This document shows, piece by piece, positions 39,407-45,140 of a stretch of 64,000 bases of DNA. The stretch is from Poritiphilus flavus (GTDB lineage: Bacteria > Bacteroidota > Bacteroidia > Flavobacteriales > Flavobacteriaceae): NCBI RefSeq assembly GCF_009901585.1, contig NZ_WXYO01000009.1:1-64000 (forward strand), given 5' to 3'. The stretch's first letter is position 1. Each line of letters begins with the position of its first letter. Made by a program: the position numbers and the translations under genes. The notes under the pieces were generated by a model, which saw only the letters and a list, made by a program, of their open reading frames with translations, did no database searches and was not told the origin of the DNA.

Positions 39407-41719
39407 ATGATTAAATTAAACACTACTACATCAAAAATTATGGCAACATTCCTGTTTTTCGTGGGGATGTACAGCTATGGCCAGGACGTTCAGGGATCCT
39501 GGAAAGGCAATCTTTCTGTTCAGGGAACAGAAATGCCCCTGATCTTTAATGTTTCCATGGAAGATGGAACCTACTCATCAACCATGGATAGCCCCTCGCA
39601 AGGAGCTACTGATATTCCAATGGACGAGACCACTTTTGCGAATGACGAACTTACTATTGTTTTCAAGCAAGCGGGCATTAAATACGTTGGAAACCTGGAT
39701 GGGTCTACCCTTAACGGTACATTTTATCAGGCAGGAATGGAATTTCCACTGGTGCTCGAAAAAACAGAGAAAACCATTCCGGGAAACCCGGAATTACCCA
39801 GTTCAGATGAAGAACTGGACGCACTTACAAAGCTGGATCAGGGAGACTACCGATATACGGTAGAAGACTATTTTGCCAAGCCTAAAGCTTCCACTTTCCG
39901 ATTTTCACCGGATGGGAAATACATGTCTTACCGGGAAAAGGATGAGAACGGAAAACGCCATATTTATGTAAAAGACGTGGCTTCCGGTGTAGCCAAAAGG
40001 GTTATTGAAGAAAAGGAGGAGCTCGTAAGAGGTTACGGATGGATCAACAATGAGCGCCTGGTCTATATTATGGACAGAGGTGGAGATGAAAATTATCATG
40101 TATACGCGGTGAATCTGGACGGATCAAACCAAAAAGACCTTACTCCTTTTGACGGCATCCGAGCTCAATTCAGTGATTTGCTTAAGGATGATAAAGATCA
40201 CATCATCGTACTGATGAACAAAAACAATCCGCAAGTATTTGAACCCTATAAGATCAATGTGGTCAACGGTGAAATGGAACAACTCTATGCGAATGACGAC
40301 CCGGCAAACCCTATAGCAGGGTATGATTTTGACAAGGATGGTAAGCTGAAATCCTTCACCAGGATCCGTGATGGGGTAGAGCAGGATATCTATTACGCCA
40401 AGGAGCCCGGTAAGTTTGAGCTTCTTAAAAGCCTGAATTGGAAGGACTCCTTTGGAATTCTTCAATTCAACTACGCTACTGAAAATCCACATGATGCCTA
40501 TATGGTCTCTAACCTTGAAAATGACAAGGCCGAAATTGTATTGTACGATCTGAAGGAAGACAAGATCATAGAAAAGGTATTTTCCAATGATCAGTACGAT
40601 GTGTCTAACCTTGGGATTTCACGAAACAGGGATTGGGAGTTGGATTACTTCAGCTATGAAGGAGAAAGAAACGTGATCGTTCCGGTAAGCGAATACTTTA
40701 CAAAGCTACACAACAAGATCACTGCCAAGTTTGAAGGTAAGCAGTACTCTATTCCCGATGCTACAGACGACGAGAGCAAGTACCTGATCTTTGTACAGAG
40801 TGATCGGCTATACGGAGTTTACTATTCCTATGATGCGGAGAAAGACGAGTTCACGGAACTATACAACCTGATGCCTCAGTTAAAAGAGGAGGATATGGCT
40901 GAAATGAGGCCCATAAGTTTCAAAAGCAGGGATGGATTGACTATTCACGGTTATATTACCCTTCCAAAGGCAGCCCTTCAGGGCCAAAAAGTACCTGTTG
41001 TCGTGAATCCACATGGTGGACCACAGGGGATAAGGGATTCCTGGGGTTTCAATCCGGAAGCTCAGCTTTTTGCAAGCCGGGGTTATGCAACTTTACAGGT
41101 TAATTTCAGGATCTCCGGAGGATACGGAAGAGAATTTCTGGAAACCGGATTCAAGCAGATCGGAAGAAAGGCCATGGACGATGTGGAAGACGGACTGCAA
41201 TACGTGATAGACCAGGGTTGGGTAGATAAGGATAAGGCCGCGATTTACGGTGGAAGCCATGGTGGTTACGCTGTACTGAGAGGACTTACCAAAACCCCGG
41301 ACCTTTATGCCTGCGGTGTGGACTATGTAGGAGTATCTAACCTCTTTACCTTCATGAAAACCATTCCGCCTTACTGGAAGCCATATTTGAAGATCATTAA
41401 AGAGATCTGGTATGATGAAGATGTTCCGGAAGAAAAGGCTATTATGGAAGAAGTATCTCCGGTATATCAGATAGACCGTATTAAAAAGCCGCTTTTTGTG
41501 GTTCAGGGTGCCAATGACCCCAGGGTGAATATTGACGAGTCTGACCAGATCGTGAGTGCGCTGAGAGCCAAGGGATTTGATGTGCCCTATATGGTGAAAT
41601 ACGACGAAGGTCACGGTTTTGGCAAAGAAGAAAACTCCATCCATCTTTATAAGGCTATGATGGGCTTTTACGCCAAGCACCTGGGCCAGCAGGAGATCAC
41701 AACACCTTTAAGAGACTAA
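39407..41719 (+). CDS. Secreted S9-family prolyl oligopeptidase / dipeptidyl peptidase
   Basis: A 770-residue exported protein; the signal sequence ends about MYSYGQ (residue 26). About 100 residues follow that look like a small beta-barrel (DVQGSWKGNLSVQGTEMPLI), then a beta-propeller region (about 145-500) and an alpha/beta hydrolase domain (about 510-770). The nucleophile Ser is in YGGSHGGYAVLRG (about residue 624), the Asp in VVQGANDPRVN and the His in YDEGHGFGKEEN. It probably degrades peptides in the periplasm. The extra N-terminal domain resembles the lipid-/substrate-binding extension found beside hydrolases in Bacteroidota. A terminator follows. Confidence 0.9.
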   Translation: MIKLNTTTSKIMATFLFFVGMYSYGQDVQGSWKGNLSVQGTEMPLIFNVSMEDGTYSSTMDSPSQGATDIPMDETTFANDELTIVFKQAGIKYVGNLDGSTLNGTFYQAGMEFPLVLEKTEKTIPGNPELPSSDEELDALTKLDQGDYRYTVEDYFAKPKASTFRFSPDGKYMSYREKDENGKRHIYVKDVASGVAKRVIEEKEELVRGYGWINNERLVYIMDRGGDENYHVYAVNLDGSNQKDLTPFDGIRAQFSDLLKDDKDHIIVLMNKNNPQVFEPYKINVVNGEMEQLYANDDPANPIAGYDFDKDGKLKSFTRIRDGVEQDIYYAKEPGKFELLKSLNWKDSFGILQFNYATENPHDAYMVSNLENDKAEIVLYDLKEDKIIEKVFSNDQYDVSNLGISRNRDWELDYFSYEGERNVIVPVSEYFTKLHNKITAKFEGKQYSIPDATDDESKYLIFVQSDRLYGVYYSYDAEKDEFTELYNLMPQLKEEDMAEMRPISFKSRDGLTIHGYITLPKAALQGQKVPVVVNPHGGPQGIRDSWGFNPEAQLFASRGYATLQVNFRISGGYGREFLETGFKQIGRKAMDDVEDGLQYVIDQGWVDKDKAAIYGGSHGGYAVLRGLTKTPDLYACGVDYVGVSNLFTFMKTIPPYWKPYLKIIKEIWYDEDVPEEKAIMEEVSPVYQIDRIKKPLFVVQGANDPRVNIDESDQIVSALRAKGFDVPYMVKYDEGHGFGKEENSIHLYKAMMGFYAKHLGQQEITTPLRD

Positions 41720-41746: not shown

Positions 41747-41771
41747 GGGAGCCGAGAGGCTCCCTTTTTTT
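41747..41771 (+). terminator. Terminator after the S9 peptidase gene
   Basis: Perfect 7-bp stem gggagcc / ggctccc with loop gaga and a run of seven T, 27 bp after the stop. Confidence 0.92.
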
Positions 41772-41885
41772 GTTTGAAATCTAAGATCAGGTTGAAGTAC
41801 AGGAATAAGTACAAGTATAAGTACAAGTATAAGTACAAGTTTAAGTTTAAAGGTTTTAGGTGTTGAGTAAGCAAAACTGTTTACT

Positions 41886-41901
41886 CCCGATAGCTATCGG
41901 G
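41886..41901. repeat. 16-bp perfect palindrome
   Basis: The sequence cccgatagctatcggg is its own reverse complement. It is inserted between ACTGTTT-type and ACTGTCC heptads. From memory the same palindrome is common in intergenic DNA of flavobacteria. Confidence 0.8.
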
Positions 41902-42080
41902 ACTGTCCGCCAACCTAATTATGTCTCGACTGCCCGTCCGAATGCCTTGGCCCCATCCGTACCGGAGCGGGCGGGCGGGCGGACGCTCGACCTGACATAG
42001 CGAAAAACCAACCGCCACCTACATCATTCTCAGTTGCTTTAGCGAAGGAGGACTGCCAACTGCGAACTGCCCGCTGCCCA

Positions 42081-42787
42081 CTGAAACCGGGGGCCTAAAC
42101 CCCGCCCCAATCTTAAATTAATCCCGGACACTGCAATGTAAAAGCAGAAAAGGTGATTTGTTGATTTGATGGTTTGTCAATTTGAATATTTGAAAATGTG
42201 AAAATGAGGAAATGTGAAAATGTAAAACTGTGAAACCGCCTCCTATCTGTTGATTTCATCCTCCGTAGCTTTAGTGAAGGAGGACTGCCAACTGCCAACT
42301 GCCCACTGAAACCAGGGTTCTAAACCCCGCCCTAATCTTAAATTGACCTCGGACACTGCAATGTAAAAGCAGAAAAGGTGATTTGATGGTTTGTCAATTT
42401 GAATATTTGAAAATGTGAAAATGTGAAAATGTGAAAATGTGAAAATGAGGAAATGTGAAATTGTAAAACCGTGAAACCACCTCCTACCTGTTGATTTCAT
42501 CCTCCGTAGCTTTAGCGAAGGAGGACTGCCAACTGGCAACTGTCCACTGAAACCAGGGTTCTAAACCCCGCCCTAATCTTAAATTGACCTCGGACACTGC
42601 AATGTAAAAGCAGAAAAGGTGATTTGATGGTTTGTCAATTTGAATATTTGAAAATGTGAAAATGTGAAAATGTGAAAATGTGAAAATGAGGAAATGTGAA
42701 ATTGTAAAACCGTGAAACCACCTCCTACCTGTTGATTTCATCCTCCGTAGCTTTAGCGAAGGAGGACTGCCAACTGGCAACTGTCCA
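42081..42787 (+). repeat. Tandem repeat of three composite units, 225, 241 and 241 bp
   Basis: Units begin with ctgaaacc at 42081, 42306 and 42547, and a truncated fourth begins at 42788. Units two and three are nearly identical. Each contains a small hairpin (ctgcaatgtaaaagcag), an octamer array of form nnnnTGAA (42155-42234 with 10 units; 42380-42475 and 42621-42716 with 12), the 26-bp palindromic module (42259, 42500, 42741) and three to four ACTGnnn heptads. The 16-bp length difference of the first unit equals exactly two octamers. Confidence 0.92.
42259..42284 (+). repeat. 26-bp palindromic intergenic module (first of three in tandem)
   Basis: Arms tcctcc / ggagga around gtagctttagtgaa; the copies at 42500-42525 and 42741-42766 read agcgaa in place of agtgaa. 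A partial copy ending gctttagcgaaggagga lies at about 42036-42052. All are followed directly by ACTGnnn heptads. Confidence 0.85.
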
Positions 42788-42916
42788 CTGAAACCAGGGT
42801 TCTAAACCCCGCCCCAAATTCAAGTTAATCCTTGGTACTGCATTTTAAAAGCAGAGAAGACAAAGATTAGGTTGAAGTACAAGTATAAGTACAAGTTTAA
42901 GTGTTAAGTAAGGCAA

Positions 42917-43000
42917 ACTGTTTACTGTTTACTGCCTACTGCAAACGGCCTACTGCCAACCGCCAACCGCCAACTGCCTACTGCGAACTGCCCACTGACA
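42917..43000 (+). repeat. Twelve-unit ACTGnnn heptanucleotide array
   Basis: Twelve consecutive 7-bp units in perfect phase. Nine begin with ACTG and three with ACGG or ACCG; the last three bases vary (TTT, CCT, CAA, CCA, CGA, CCC, ACA). Conserved phase with free third part distinguishes it from a simple homogeneous microsatellite. Confidence 0.9.
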
Positions 43001-43075: not shown

Positions 43076-43177
43076 AATAAGAAATGAGATAGAAACCATT
43101 AAATCCAAAAGTTATGGTCACTTTAGCAAAATTGGTAATCACCTTACTTTTAAGTGTAATCCTTTAAGAAGTACGAT

Positions 43178-43303
43178 ATGAGAATTCAAACCGCTACCCT
43201 GAAATTATCGTTGAGATCTTTTGCTGTATTCACCTCAGTGGTCTTGATAATGTTTGGCTTGGGATTCCTTGTTGGTAAGGGCCTCTATTATCTTTTCAAT
43301 TAA
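43178..43303 (+). CDS. Small single-pass membrane peptide, 41 residues
   Basis: An ATG frame encoding 41 residues: a basic, polar start (MRIQTATLKLSLRSF) and one long hydrophobic helix (about residues 15-34, AVFTSVVLIMFGLGFLVGKG) ending in LYYLFN. It lies between two TATATTTG boxes and 50 bp upstream of the LytS-type kinase gene. The topology is convincing for a small membrane protein, but no family is recognised. A 17-residue hydrophobic frame at 43114-43167 (MVTLAKLVITLLLSVIL) precedes it by 10 bp and may be a leader peptide or a signal-peptide remnant. Confidence 0.55.
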   Translation: MRIQTATLKLSLRSFAVFTSVVLIMFGLGFLVGKGLYYLFN

Positions 43304-43353: not shown

Positions 43354-44412
43354 ATGGAATTATCTGCAACCAAGCGCAATCGCATATTTTGGCTCCTTCA
43401 ATTTCTGGGTTGGGGATTTATAAATGCATTCTCCTTTTTTCTTTTCACGAAAGTCAGTCTTGAATTCATCATTTTTTCTATTCTTTCCGGAATTTTTATT
43501 GGTGTTTTCACTACCTCCTTACTTAGAAATTACCTTAAAAAACAGAACCTCTTTGACCAGTTTGGACTTAAGGAAATCCTTAAGATTGCCATTTCTACTG
43601 TTTTGTGCTCGGCTCTTTACGGCTCTATGAGTTTCGCTGCAGGATTCTTCTATGGAAAGTACATGCCGACCGTAGATGAGATTGAAATCAAAATACTTGA
43701 GAATTATAACAGTTTTTGGCTCATAGCTGTTAATTCCCTCTTTATTATTTTCGTTTGGGTGGTTTGCTACCTGGTCATAAAGCTATTGCTTAAACTGAAT
43801 GCAGACCGCATAGAACGCCTGGAACTGAATACAACCTTGAAACAGGCACAGTTAAATACCCTCAAGGGCCAGATCAACCCGCATTTTATGTTTAACAGTC
43901 TGAACAATATCCGGGGGTTGATGCTGGAGGATGTTGAGAAGTCGAGGGATATGTTGACCAAACTTTCGGAAATGCTCAGATATTCACTTACCCAGAATGA
44001 CGGGAATGCCATTGCCCTGGAACAGGAACTGGAGATGGTGGAGAACTATATTGACTTGTCTAAAATTCAGTTTGAGGACAGGCTTCGCTTTGAGAAAGAC
44101 ATTGACCCAAAATCTCTACACCTCAGTATTCCCCCAATGATAGTGCAACTGCTGGTAGAGAACGGAACCAAACATGGAATATCCAAACTCAAGCAAGGCG
44201 GGACCATTGCGCTAAAGACCAATGTTGAAGAAGATCAACTGACCATTCGCGTTAGTAATACAGGAAGCTTGAAAATGGGTAAGAATACCACGCAATTAGG
44301 GCTAAAAAATATAAGGCAGCGATTAAGGCTGCTATATGGCGAAAGGGCCACTTTTGGGCTAAAAGAAGAAAACGGAGAAGTAGTGGCAACCATAAAGATT
44401 CCGTTATCATGA
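43354..44412 (+). CDS. LytS-type sensor histidine kinase
   Basis: A 352-residue membrane kinase. Four hydrophobic helices fill about residues 10-150, then a short coiled coil (ADRIERLELNTTLKQAQLNT) leads into the His_kinase domain with the phospho-acceptor in LKGQINPHFMFNSLNNIRGL (His about 176). The ATPase domain shows PPMIVQLLVENGTKHGISKL (N-box) and LGLKNIRQRLRLLYG. No periplasmic sensor domain is evident, so it probably senses through the membrane part. Its stop overlaps the response-regulator start by 4 bp (ATGA). Confidence 0.93.
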   Translation: MELSATKRNRIFWLLQFLGWGFINAFSFFLFTKVSLEFIIFSILSGIFIGVFTTSLLRNYLKKQNLFDQFGLKEILKIAISTVLCSALYGSMSFAAGFFYGKYMPTVDEIEIKILENYNSFWLIAVNSLFIIFVWVVCYLVIKLLLKLNADRIERLELNTTLKQAQLNTLKGQINPHFMFNSLNNIRGLMLEDVEKSRDMLTKLSEMLRYSLTQNDGNAIALEQELEMVENYIDLSKIQFEDRLRFEKDIDPKSLHLSIPPMIVQLLVENGTKHGISKLKQGGTIALKTNVEEDQLTIRVSNTGSLKMGKNTTQLGLKNIRQRLRLLYGERATFGLKEENGEVVATIKIPLS

Positions 44413-45140
44413 GCAAAATAAACACGGTAATTGTTGAAGATTCCAGACTTGCCAGGAACGAGCTAAAGGAGATGATCAAGAAATATTCCCGGATTTCGCT
44501 TGTCGGGGAGGCTGAAAATGTGGATCAGGCTTATGAGCTCATAAATGAAACAAGGCCAGACCTGATCTTTTTGGATATCAATATGCCGGAGAAAGATGGT
44601 TTTGAACTGCTTGAAATGCTGGATGAGGTTCCCATAACGGTTTTTACTACCGCTTTTGACGAATACGCCATAAAATCCTTTGAGTACAATGCCCTGGACT
44701 ATCTGCTAAAGCCAATAAATGAAAAGAGATTTGCTGTCGCGATGGAAAAAATTGAGGCCAGACTGGAAGCCATGGATTCTAAAAGCTCCGGGCATGAATC
44801 GCGCCTCACAGATAAAAGCCAGATCTTTATTAAGGATGGTGAAAAATGCTGGCTGGTACGCATAGAGGAAATCCTCCTTTTTGAGATCGTCGGAAACTAT
44901 ACCCGTGTCTTTTTTAAGGAAGAGAAACCAATGTTGTACAAGTCTTTAAACCAGGTAGAAGAAAAACTTCCTCTTGCCAACTTTTTCAGGGCAAATAGAC
45001 AGCAAATCATCAATATTAACTTCATCAAGGAAGTGGTTCCCTGGTTCAATGGAAAGCTGAAGTTGACCATGACCAATGGGGAAGAGGTAGAAGTATCCCG
45101 TAGGCAATCCTACATTTTTAAAGACAAGATGAGCCTTTAA
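44409..45140 (+). CDS. LytTR-family response regulator
   Basis: A 243-residue regulator. The receiver domain (1-120) has VIVEDSRLARNELKEMIKKY, the phospho-acceptor in DLIFLDINMPEKDGFELL (Asp about 56), the Thr in VFTTAFDEYAIKSFEYNALD and the Lys in YLLKPINEKRF. The LytTR DNA-binding domain (about 140-243) has IFIKDGEKCWLVRIEEILLF and FFRANRQQIININFIKEVVP. It is translationally coupled to the kinase. Possible target promoters include that of the adjoining small membrane peptide, but no direct-repeat LytTR site was identified. Confidence 0.94.
   Translation: MSKINTVIVEDSRLARNELKEMIKKYSRISLVGEAENVDQAYELINETRPDLIFLDINMPEKDGFELLEMLDEVPITVFTTAFDEYAIKSFEYNALDYLLKPINEKRFAVAMEKIEARLEAMDSKSSGHESRLTDKSQIFIKDGEKCWLVRIEEILLFEIVGNYTRVFFKEEKPMLYKSLNQVEEKLPLANFFRANRQQIININFIKEVVPWFNGKLKLTMTNGEEVEVSRRQSYIFKDKMSL

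Follow-up and report, generated by a model that had tools for sequence, protein, structure and literature searches.

A tandem repeat in Poritiphilus flavus is probably one island of a dispersed, directional family of non-coding mosaic repeats

A composite tandem repeat at positions 42081–42787 of the window, the 64,000-nt stretch of Poritiphilus flavus DNA analysed here, most likely belongs, as one island among many, to a family of non-coding mosaic repeats that is dispersed and directional and that the genome carries as a neutral or selfish passenger, a reading we hold at a probability of roughly 0.6. The island would then most likely be DNA tolerated in the space that separates a terminator from the promoter after it, and not a gene, a CRISPR array or a cis-regulatory RNA. 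The first-pass annotation had described the locus by itself. The repeat it reported is real, but the picture was incomplete, as the locus is not a one-off and belongs to a genome-wide directional family.

The three tandem units begin at positions 42081, 42306 and 42547 and span 225, 241 and 241 bp up to a truncated fourth at 42788; their octamer arrays hold 10, 12 and 12 units, all as originally annotated. Tandem Repeats Finder recovered a period of 241 (3.2 copies, score 1073) with period-8 arrays nested within. The island is wider than the repeat first noted, running from a hexamer array that begins at 41795 to a heptamer array that ends at 42997, with the following features:

41747–41771, forward strand: intrinsic terminator of the S9 peptidase gene, left border of the island (7-bp stem, T run)
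41795–41850, forward strand: hexamer array (AAGTAT AAGTAC), start of the island (Tandem Repeats Finder, period 6/12)
41886–41901, no strand assigned: 16-bp perfect palindrome CCCGATAGCTATCGGG
41924–41997, forward strand: palindrome TCTCGACTGC/GCTCGACCTGACA with a 53-bp hairpin insert, itself holding another hairpin
42027–42052, forward strand: degenerate copy of the 26-bp palindrome
42081–42305, forward strand: tandem unit 1, 225 bp
42084–42151, forward strand: 68-nt two-hairpin core, copy 1 (covariance model, 78.2 bits)
42155–42234, forward strand: octamer array of 10 units, in unit 1
42259–42284, forward strand: 26-bp imperfect palindrome (P26), unit 1
42306–42546, forward strand: tandem unit 2, 241 bp
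42309–42376, forward strand: 68-nt core, copy 2 (covariance model, 71.7 bits)
42380–42475, forward strand: octamer array of 12 units, in unit 2
42500–42525, forward strand: P26, unit 2
42547–42787, forward strand: tandem unit 3, 241 bp, identical to unit 2
42550–42617, forward strand: 68-nt core, copy 3 (covariance model, 71.7 bits)
42621–42716, forward strand: octamer array of 12 units, in unit 3
42741–42766, forward strand: P26, unit 3
42788–42859, forward strand: truncated unit 4, core only
42791–42858, forward strand: 68-nt core, copy 4 (covariance model, 83.6 bits)
42874–42901, forward strand: second hexamer array
42931–42997, forward strand: terminal heptamer array (nnACTGn), right end of the island (Tandem Repeats Finder, period 7)

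Units 2 and 3 share 100% identity across 241 bp. In a global alignment, units 1 and 2 were 94% identical; the two gaps, of 24 bp and 8 bp, lie on opposite sides of the alignment and both inside the octamer array. Read in octamers, unit 1 has an additional GATTTGTT absent from unit 2 and three fewer AATGTGAA. Since the gaps are on opposite sides, the 16-bp length difference between the units is the net result of two opposite events in octamer-sized steps. The earlier idea that the missing 16 bp represents two octamers was therefore right about the place and the step size, but the 24-bp and 8-bp gaps do not fit a simple loss of two. We found no alignment that puts the 16-bp difference outside the octamer array, because both gaps fall within it. 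Length change in octamer steps inside a larger duplication is also seen at other islands, where gaps between paired units measured 16 bp (C17) and 56 plus 7 bp (C11:725k), all multiples of 8 or 7; some messier unit pairs at other islands showed many different gap lengths. These steps suggest that the octamer arrays lengthen and shorten by slippage. Tandem duplication running from core to core is directly visible here, other islands also have tandem units, and units may multiply by unequal recombination.

BLAST of the region against its own 5.0-Mb genome matched 80 places, and a single unit alone matched 95. From 39 P. flavus sequences we built a covariance model for the 68-nt core, and with it found 93 core copies in the genome (an earlier regular-expression search for the core returned mostly noise until filtered). 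The core consists of two hairpins, first GGGGTTnnnAACCCC and then CTGC..GCAG, with a conserved stretch resembling AAGTTAAT between them. Islands share a layout in which the core has a period-7 array on its 5′ side and a period-8 array on its 3′ side, with short palindromes in or between the arrays. Defining an island as at least three module hits, we read 1.11 Mb in full (22% of the genome) and found 31 islands, together making up 1.2% of that DNA. Polarity is strict: within each of 30 islands the directional modules pointed the same way, with none of 263 overlapping hits to the contrary. Carriage by plasmids or phages was rejected, as neither a plasmid collection nor a phage collection matched the unit. 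Diverged cores (GGGGAGTTCTACTCCCCTCCC..) are also repeated among short genes at C11:106–122 kb (L132/L133, G000:C11:100001-140000), alongside a CCTGCC..GGCAGG relative of P26; the 1.1 kb read there held no octamer or heptamer arrays.

The identity of the 241-bp copies raises the concern that the assembly wrongly collapsed or expanded the repeat at units 2 and 3. We consider this very unlikely, as dozens of other loci carry the family, neither unit 1 nor unit 4 is identical to units 2 and 3, and tandem units recur at other islands. The annotators' contrast with CRISPR and with ordinary minisatellites holds. Units 2 and 3 are identical throughout and the arrays have no spacers, so the locus is not a CRISPR array. 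It does show the whole-unit length differences in tandem that mark a minisatellite or VNTR, in both octamer and unit steps, but its arrays are not independent of other loci: they are tied to a dispersed family with a common core and a common array order.

We then considered where the islands lie. A gene 3′ end adjoins 30 of the 31 islands at a median distance of about 40 bp, with the island in either orientation. By a crude ORF caller, the flanking genes form 23 tandem, seven convergent and one divergent pair. Divergent gaps are avoided, accounting for 1/31 islands against 52/204 background long gaps (Fisher p=0.0045, in the 22% of the genome read). When replication-strand bias was examined, contig GC skew proved too weak and island orientations were mixed. 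At the present locus, the upstream neighbor is an S9 peptidase gene (39407–41719), followed by its intrinsic terminator; downstream come two small ORFs, a LytS-type histidine kinase (43354–44412) and a LytTR regulator (44409–45140). The same gene pair offers a direct comparison in Flavobacteriaceae bacterium D16 (L021), where the peptidase–kinase gap is 409 bp, versus 1,635 bp in P. flavus. Both edges of the gap, one by the terminator and the other just ahead of the first small ORF, are conserved in D16, which has a terminator at the equivalent place and lacks the island. Given the terminator and these aligned island-free edges, the island occupies the space between the terminator and the transcription unit that follows. 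The core was absent from all 80 loci of relatives around this S9 peptidase.

This placement bears on whether each core encodes a structured regulatory RNA. The two hairpins and the paired changes in the first of them (H1) are what such an RNA would show, but cores occur in both orientations relative to genes, and the present island comes after a terminator and is not part of the upstream gene's transcript; we regard a regulatory RNA as highly improbable. Identity with a known RNA family was rejected, no Rfam match at gathering scores being found in the nine island-holding loci.

Beyond P. flavus the core is sparse. It matched in 9/198 Flavobacteriaceae genomes, own genome included, with 1–3 copies per matching genome outside P. 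flavus and genus g161. Two members of g161, G160 and G422, had 45 and 91 cores. Among 345 Bacteroidota at 1e-4, the core was found in P. flavus, G160 and G422 only, under strict filters that may miss weak matches. In the densest series seen, some 16 cores are packed into roughly 2.5 kb, gene-free between cores (L244, G422:C4:101500-107000).

A hairpin core repeated in series at a few loci, such as C11:106–122 kb, recalls the attC sites at which integrons recombine gene cassettes. This origin is scarcely credible here: on reading, the G422 C4 series (~16 cores, ~2.5 kb) is free of genes, on which ground we rejected a cassette array, and by eye we saw nothing that matched the attC right-site consensus.

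In g161, too, heptamers often precede the core and octamers follow it. We measured the periods as self-match at a given lag, after removing near-identical flanks and in comparison with shuffled sequence. The mean lag-7 self-match 5′ of the core was 0.45 in P. flavus, 0.39 in G160 and 0.31 in G422 (shuffles ~0.26), and the mean lag-8 self-match 3′ of the core was 0.42, 0.35 and 0.34, respectively (shuffles 0.26–0.28), with echoes at lags 14 and 16; the 5′ flank in G422 showed a weaker lag-7 signal, lag 8 being almost equal (0.30). The period thus stays constant while the words are exclusive to each species: AATKTGAA in P. flavus, GTGATRCG in G160 and GGKACATA/GTTACARG in G422, with the doubled octamer words of one species absent from the sampled islands of the other two. 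The words of the three genomes follow a loose common pattern and may be homologous; the plainest account is that the octamer array was inherited and then homogenized in each species, not that it arose independently. Recombination or a copying process acting within species would produce such concerted evolution. G160 and G422 have some islands at common gene pairs (for example, before a mutS-like gene), where the arrays differ, suggesting that movement is infrequent, a point against the passenger reading; the sample held no island position common to P. flavus and g161.

That two genera keep a constant period and position could also signal function, and it counts against the passenger reading; a fixed period and order despite word change could reflect a geometric constraint and a function at the DNA level. 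One such proposal is that the arrays serve the host, with a DNA- or RNA-binding protein reading 7- or 8-bp-spaced sites beside the core, for example in chromosome organization. Period, order and polarity are kept in two genera though the words differ, and the H1 stem of the core carries paired changes above shuffling, as this proposal would have it. Word replacement, however, would destroy sequence-specific binding, no positions are common to both genera in the sample, and most Flavobacteriaceae do without the core, leaving host function possible but unlikely. We give somewhat less credence still to a dedicated template- or enzyme-driven process that overwrites octamer arrays genome-wide with a word particular to the species, yet preserves their 8-bp period and their placement relative to the core; this would amount to a satellite system with active homogenization, perhaps with a structural role.

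The passenger reading would have the hairpin modules arrive as small mobile elements, and here the palindromes are informative. Searching with TCCTCCGWAGCYTTRGCGAAGGAGGA at up to two mismatches, we found 111 copies of P26 in the P. flavus genome and matches in 18/199 family genomes and 12/296 phylum genomes (own genome included in these counts); a reversed P26 control had no matches in family or phylum genomes. Arm variants elsewhere in the phylum carry paired changes (TACTCC..GGAGTA, TGCTCC..GGAGCA, TCCTAC..GTAGGA, AGTTTTAACG), and the mismatched middle of three bases is kept despite the changes in the arms. P26 was also found in only nine putative viral contigs (L280–L288) among the 2.9 million of IMG/VR. 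A separate 23-bp palindrome occurs in the sampled genome as 14 empty copies and 20 with a central insert, the combination of empty and filled sites known from cyanobacterial small dispersed repeats (SDRs). The inserts are of several kinds, mostly hairpins, and one type contains a further hairpin, as in the nested example at 41924–41997. As these sites are paralogous and not the same site in different strains, we infer insertion rather than see it. The inserts are seamless: in g161, GC-rich hairpins lie within octamer arrays, their excision in silico restores the octamer phase, and no duplicated target bases accompanied them in the cases read. Among islands read by eye, neither the constant inverted termini nor the target duplications of a MITE were noticed.

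The first annotators had also set the repeat apart from REP elements, a contrast that was too strong, as P26 and the nested palindromes resemble REPs and other small dispersed repeats. Movement of REP/BIME-type elements by a RAYT (Y1 HUH) transposase would account for the many short intergenic imperfect palindromes represented by P26, with their conserved mismatched middle and paired arm changes, and for insertion without target duplication, and P. flavus does have one Y1 gene. That gene is flanked by its own different repeats with no P26 adjoining, the modules of an island are co-directional whereas BIME REPs alternate, and no Y1_Tnp match (PF01797) is present in the core-rich G160 and G422. 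Because these two genomes are without Y1, such a transposase cannot explain the core, and mobilization of the core by a RAYT/IS200 enzyme is ruled out unless the Y1 gene was lost there. We therefore think a REP/RAYT origin improbable. No mobilizing enzyme was identified for the islands, which counts against the passenger reading as well. The only Y1 (RAYT-like) gene (L009, G000:C1:53596-56766) has flanking repeats GATCAACGAGCGTAAGCGAGTTAATC and TCTCGACTGCGCTCGAACTGACA, and some 500 bp downstream of it lies a small island.

Arrays of heptamers, mosaic repeats between genes and small dispersed palindromes are all known kinds of sequence. Cyanobacterial short tandem heptamers and SDRs bring short palindromes and tandem arrays together in intergenic DNA, one nested within another, as here; the SDRs are reportedly treated by Elhai et al. 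in 2008 under the title "Very small mobile repeated elements". The islands differ in having a conserved two-hairpin core with period-7 and period-8 sides, all co-directional.

Arrays of the heptamer TAACTGA occur in Beggiatoaceae, Cyanobacteria and a few Bacteroidetes, in Beggiatoaceae mostly directly upstream of start codons, and for Gramella and Aequorivita a close relative has matching genes without the heptamer array (PMC4679880). They resemble the islands as intergenic heptamers with array-free relatives, but use a single word, with no core or octamers described. REP, BIME and REPIN elements with RAYT are likewise mosaics of intergenic imperfect palindromes (PMC3733652, PMC2817692, PMC3116915), whereas here the modules are co-directional, the skeleton is of tandem 7- and 8-mers, and the core-rich genomes have no cognate RAYT. 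The Porphyromonas gingivalis MITE minisatellite (PMC4596501) also places a tandem array within a dispersed short element of a Bacteroidota genome; our units carry several array types each, and inverted termini or target duplications were unseen by eye. Dispersed non-coding satellite families are reported to be rare in prokaryotes, with examples in Leptospira and Methanocella (PMC6749651). Those satellites are similarly dispersed and non-coding; in the present family, the words are swapped from one species to another and only the period and the core beside the array persist. In the open-access literature, to which our search was mostly confined, we found no description of these modules or their sequences.

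The family combines a structured core, two array periods of set polarity, and nested hairpin inserts at empty and filled sites. In the g161 congeners, octamer words differ while certain island positions coincide, and comparing strains could separate slippage, unequal recombination, gene conversion and insertion. The islands thus offer a good test case for the evolution of satellite-like DNA in bacteria, and raise the question of why period and order outlive sequence.

Some observations concern open reading frames in and near the island. The reverse strand of the island yields spurious ORFs of about 98 aa, of which annotators should beware; we rejected reverse-strand ORFs as coding, as they had no Pfam match and the unit length of 241 is not divisible by 3. 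A 17-aa hydrophobic micro-ORF, MVTLAKLVITLLLSVIL (window 43114–43167, forward strand), lies between the island and the LytS-type kinase and is possibly an unannotated micropeptide. ORFs of 17–20 aa with the start pattern MITLAKLII..SILL occur between peptidase and kinase in most of 20 named Flavobacteriaceae loci. The 17-aa ORF is followed by a 41-aa small membrane-protein ORF (window 43178–43303, forward strand), which has a counterpart at the equivalent site in D16.
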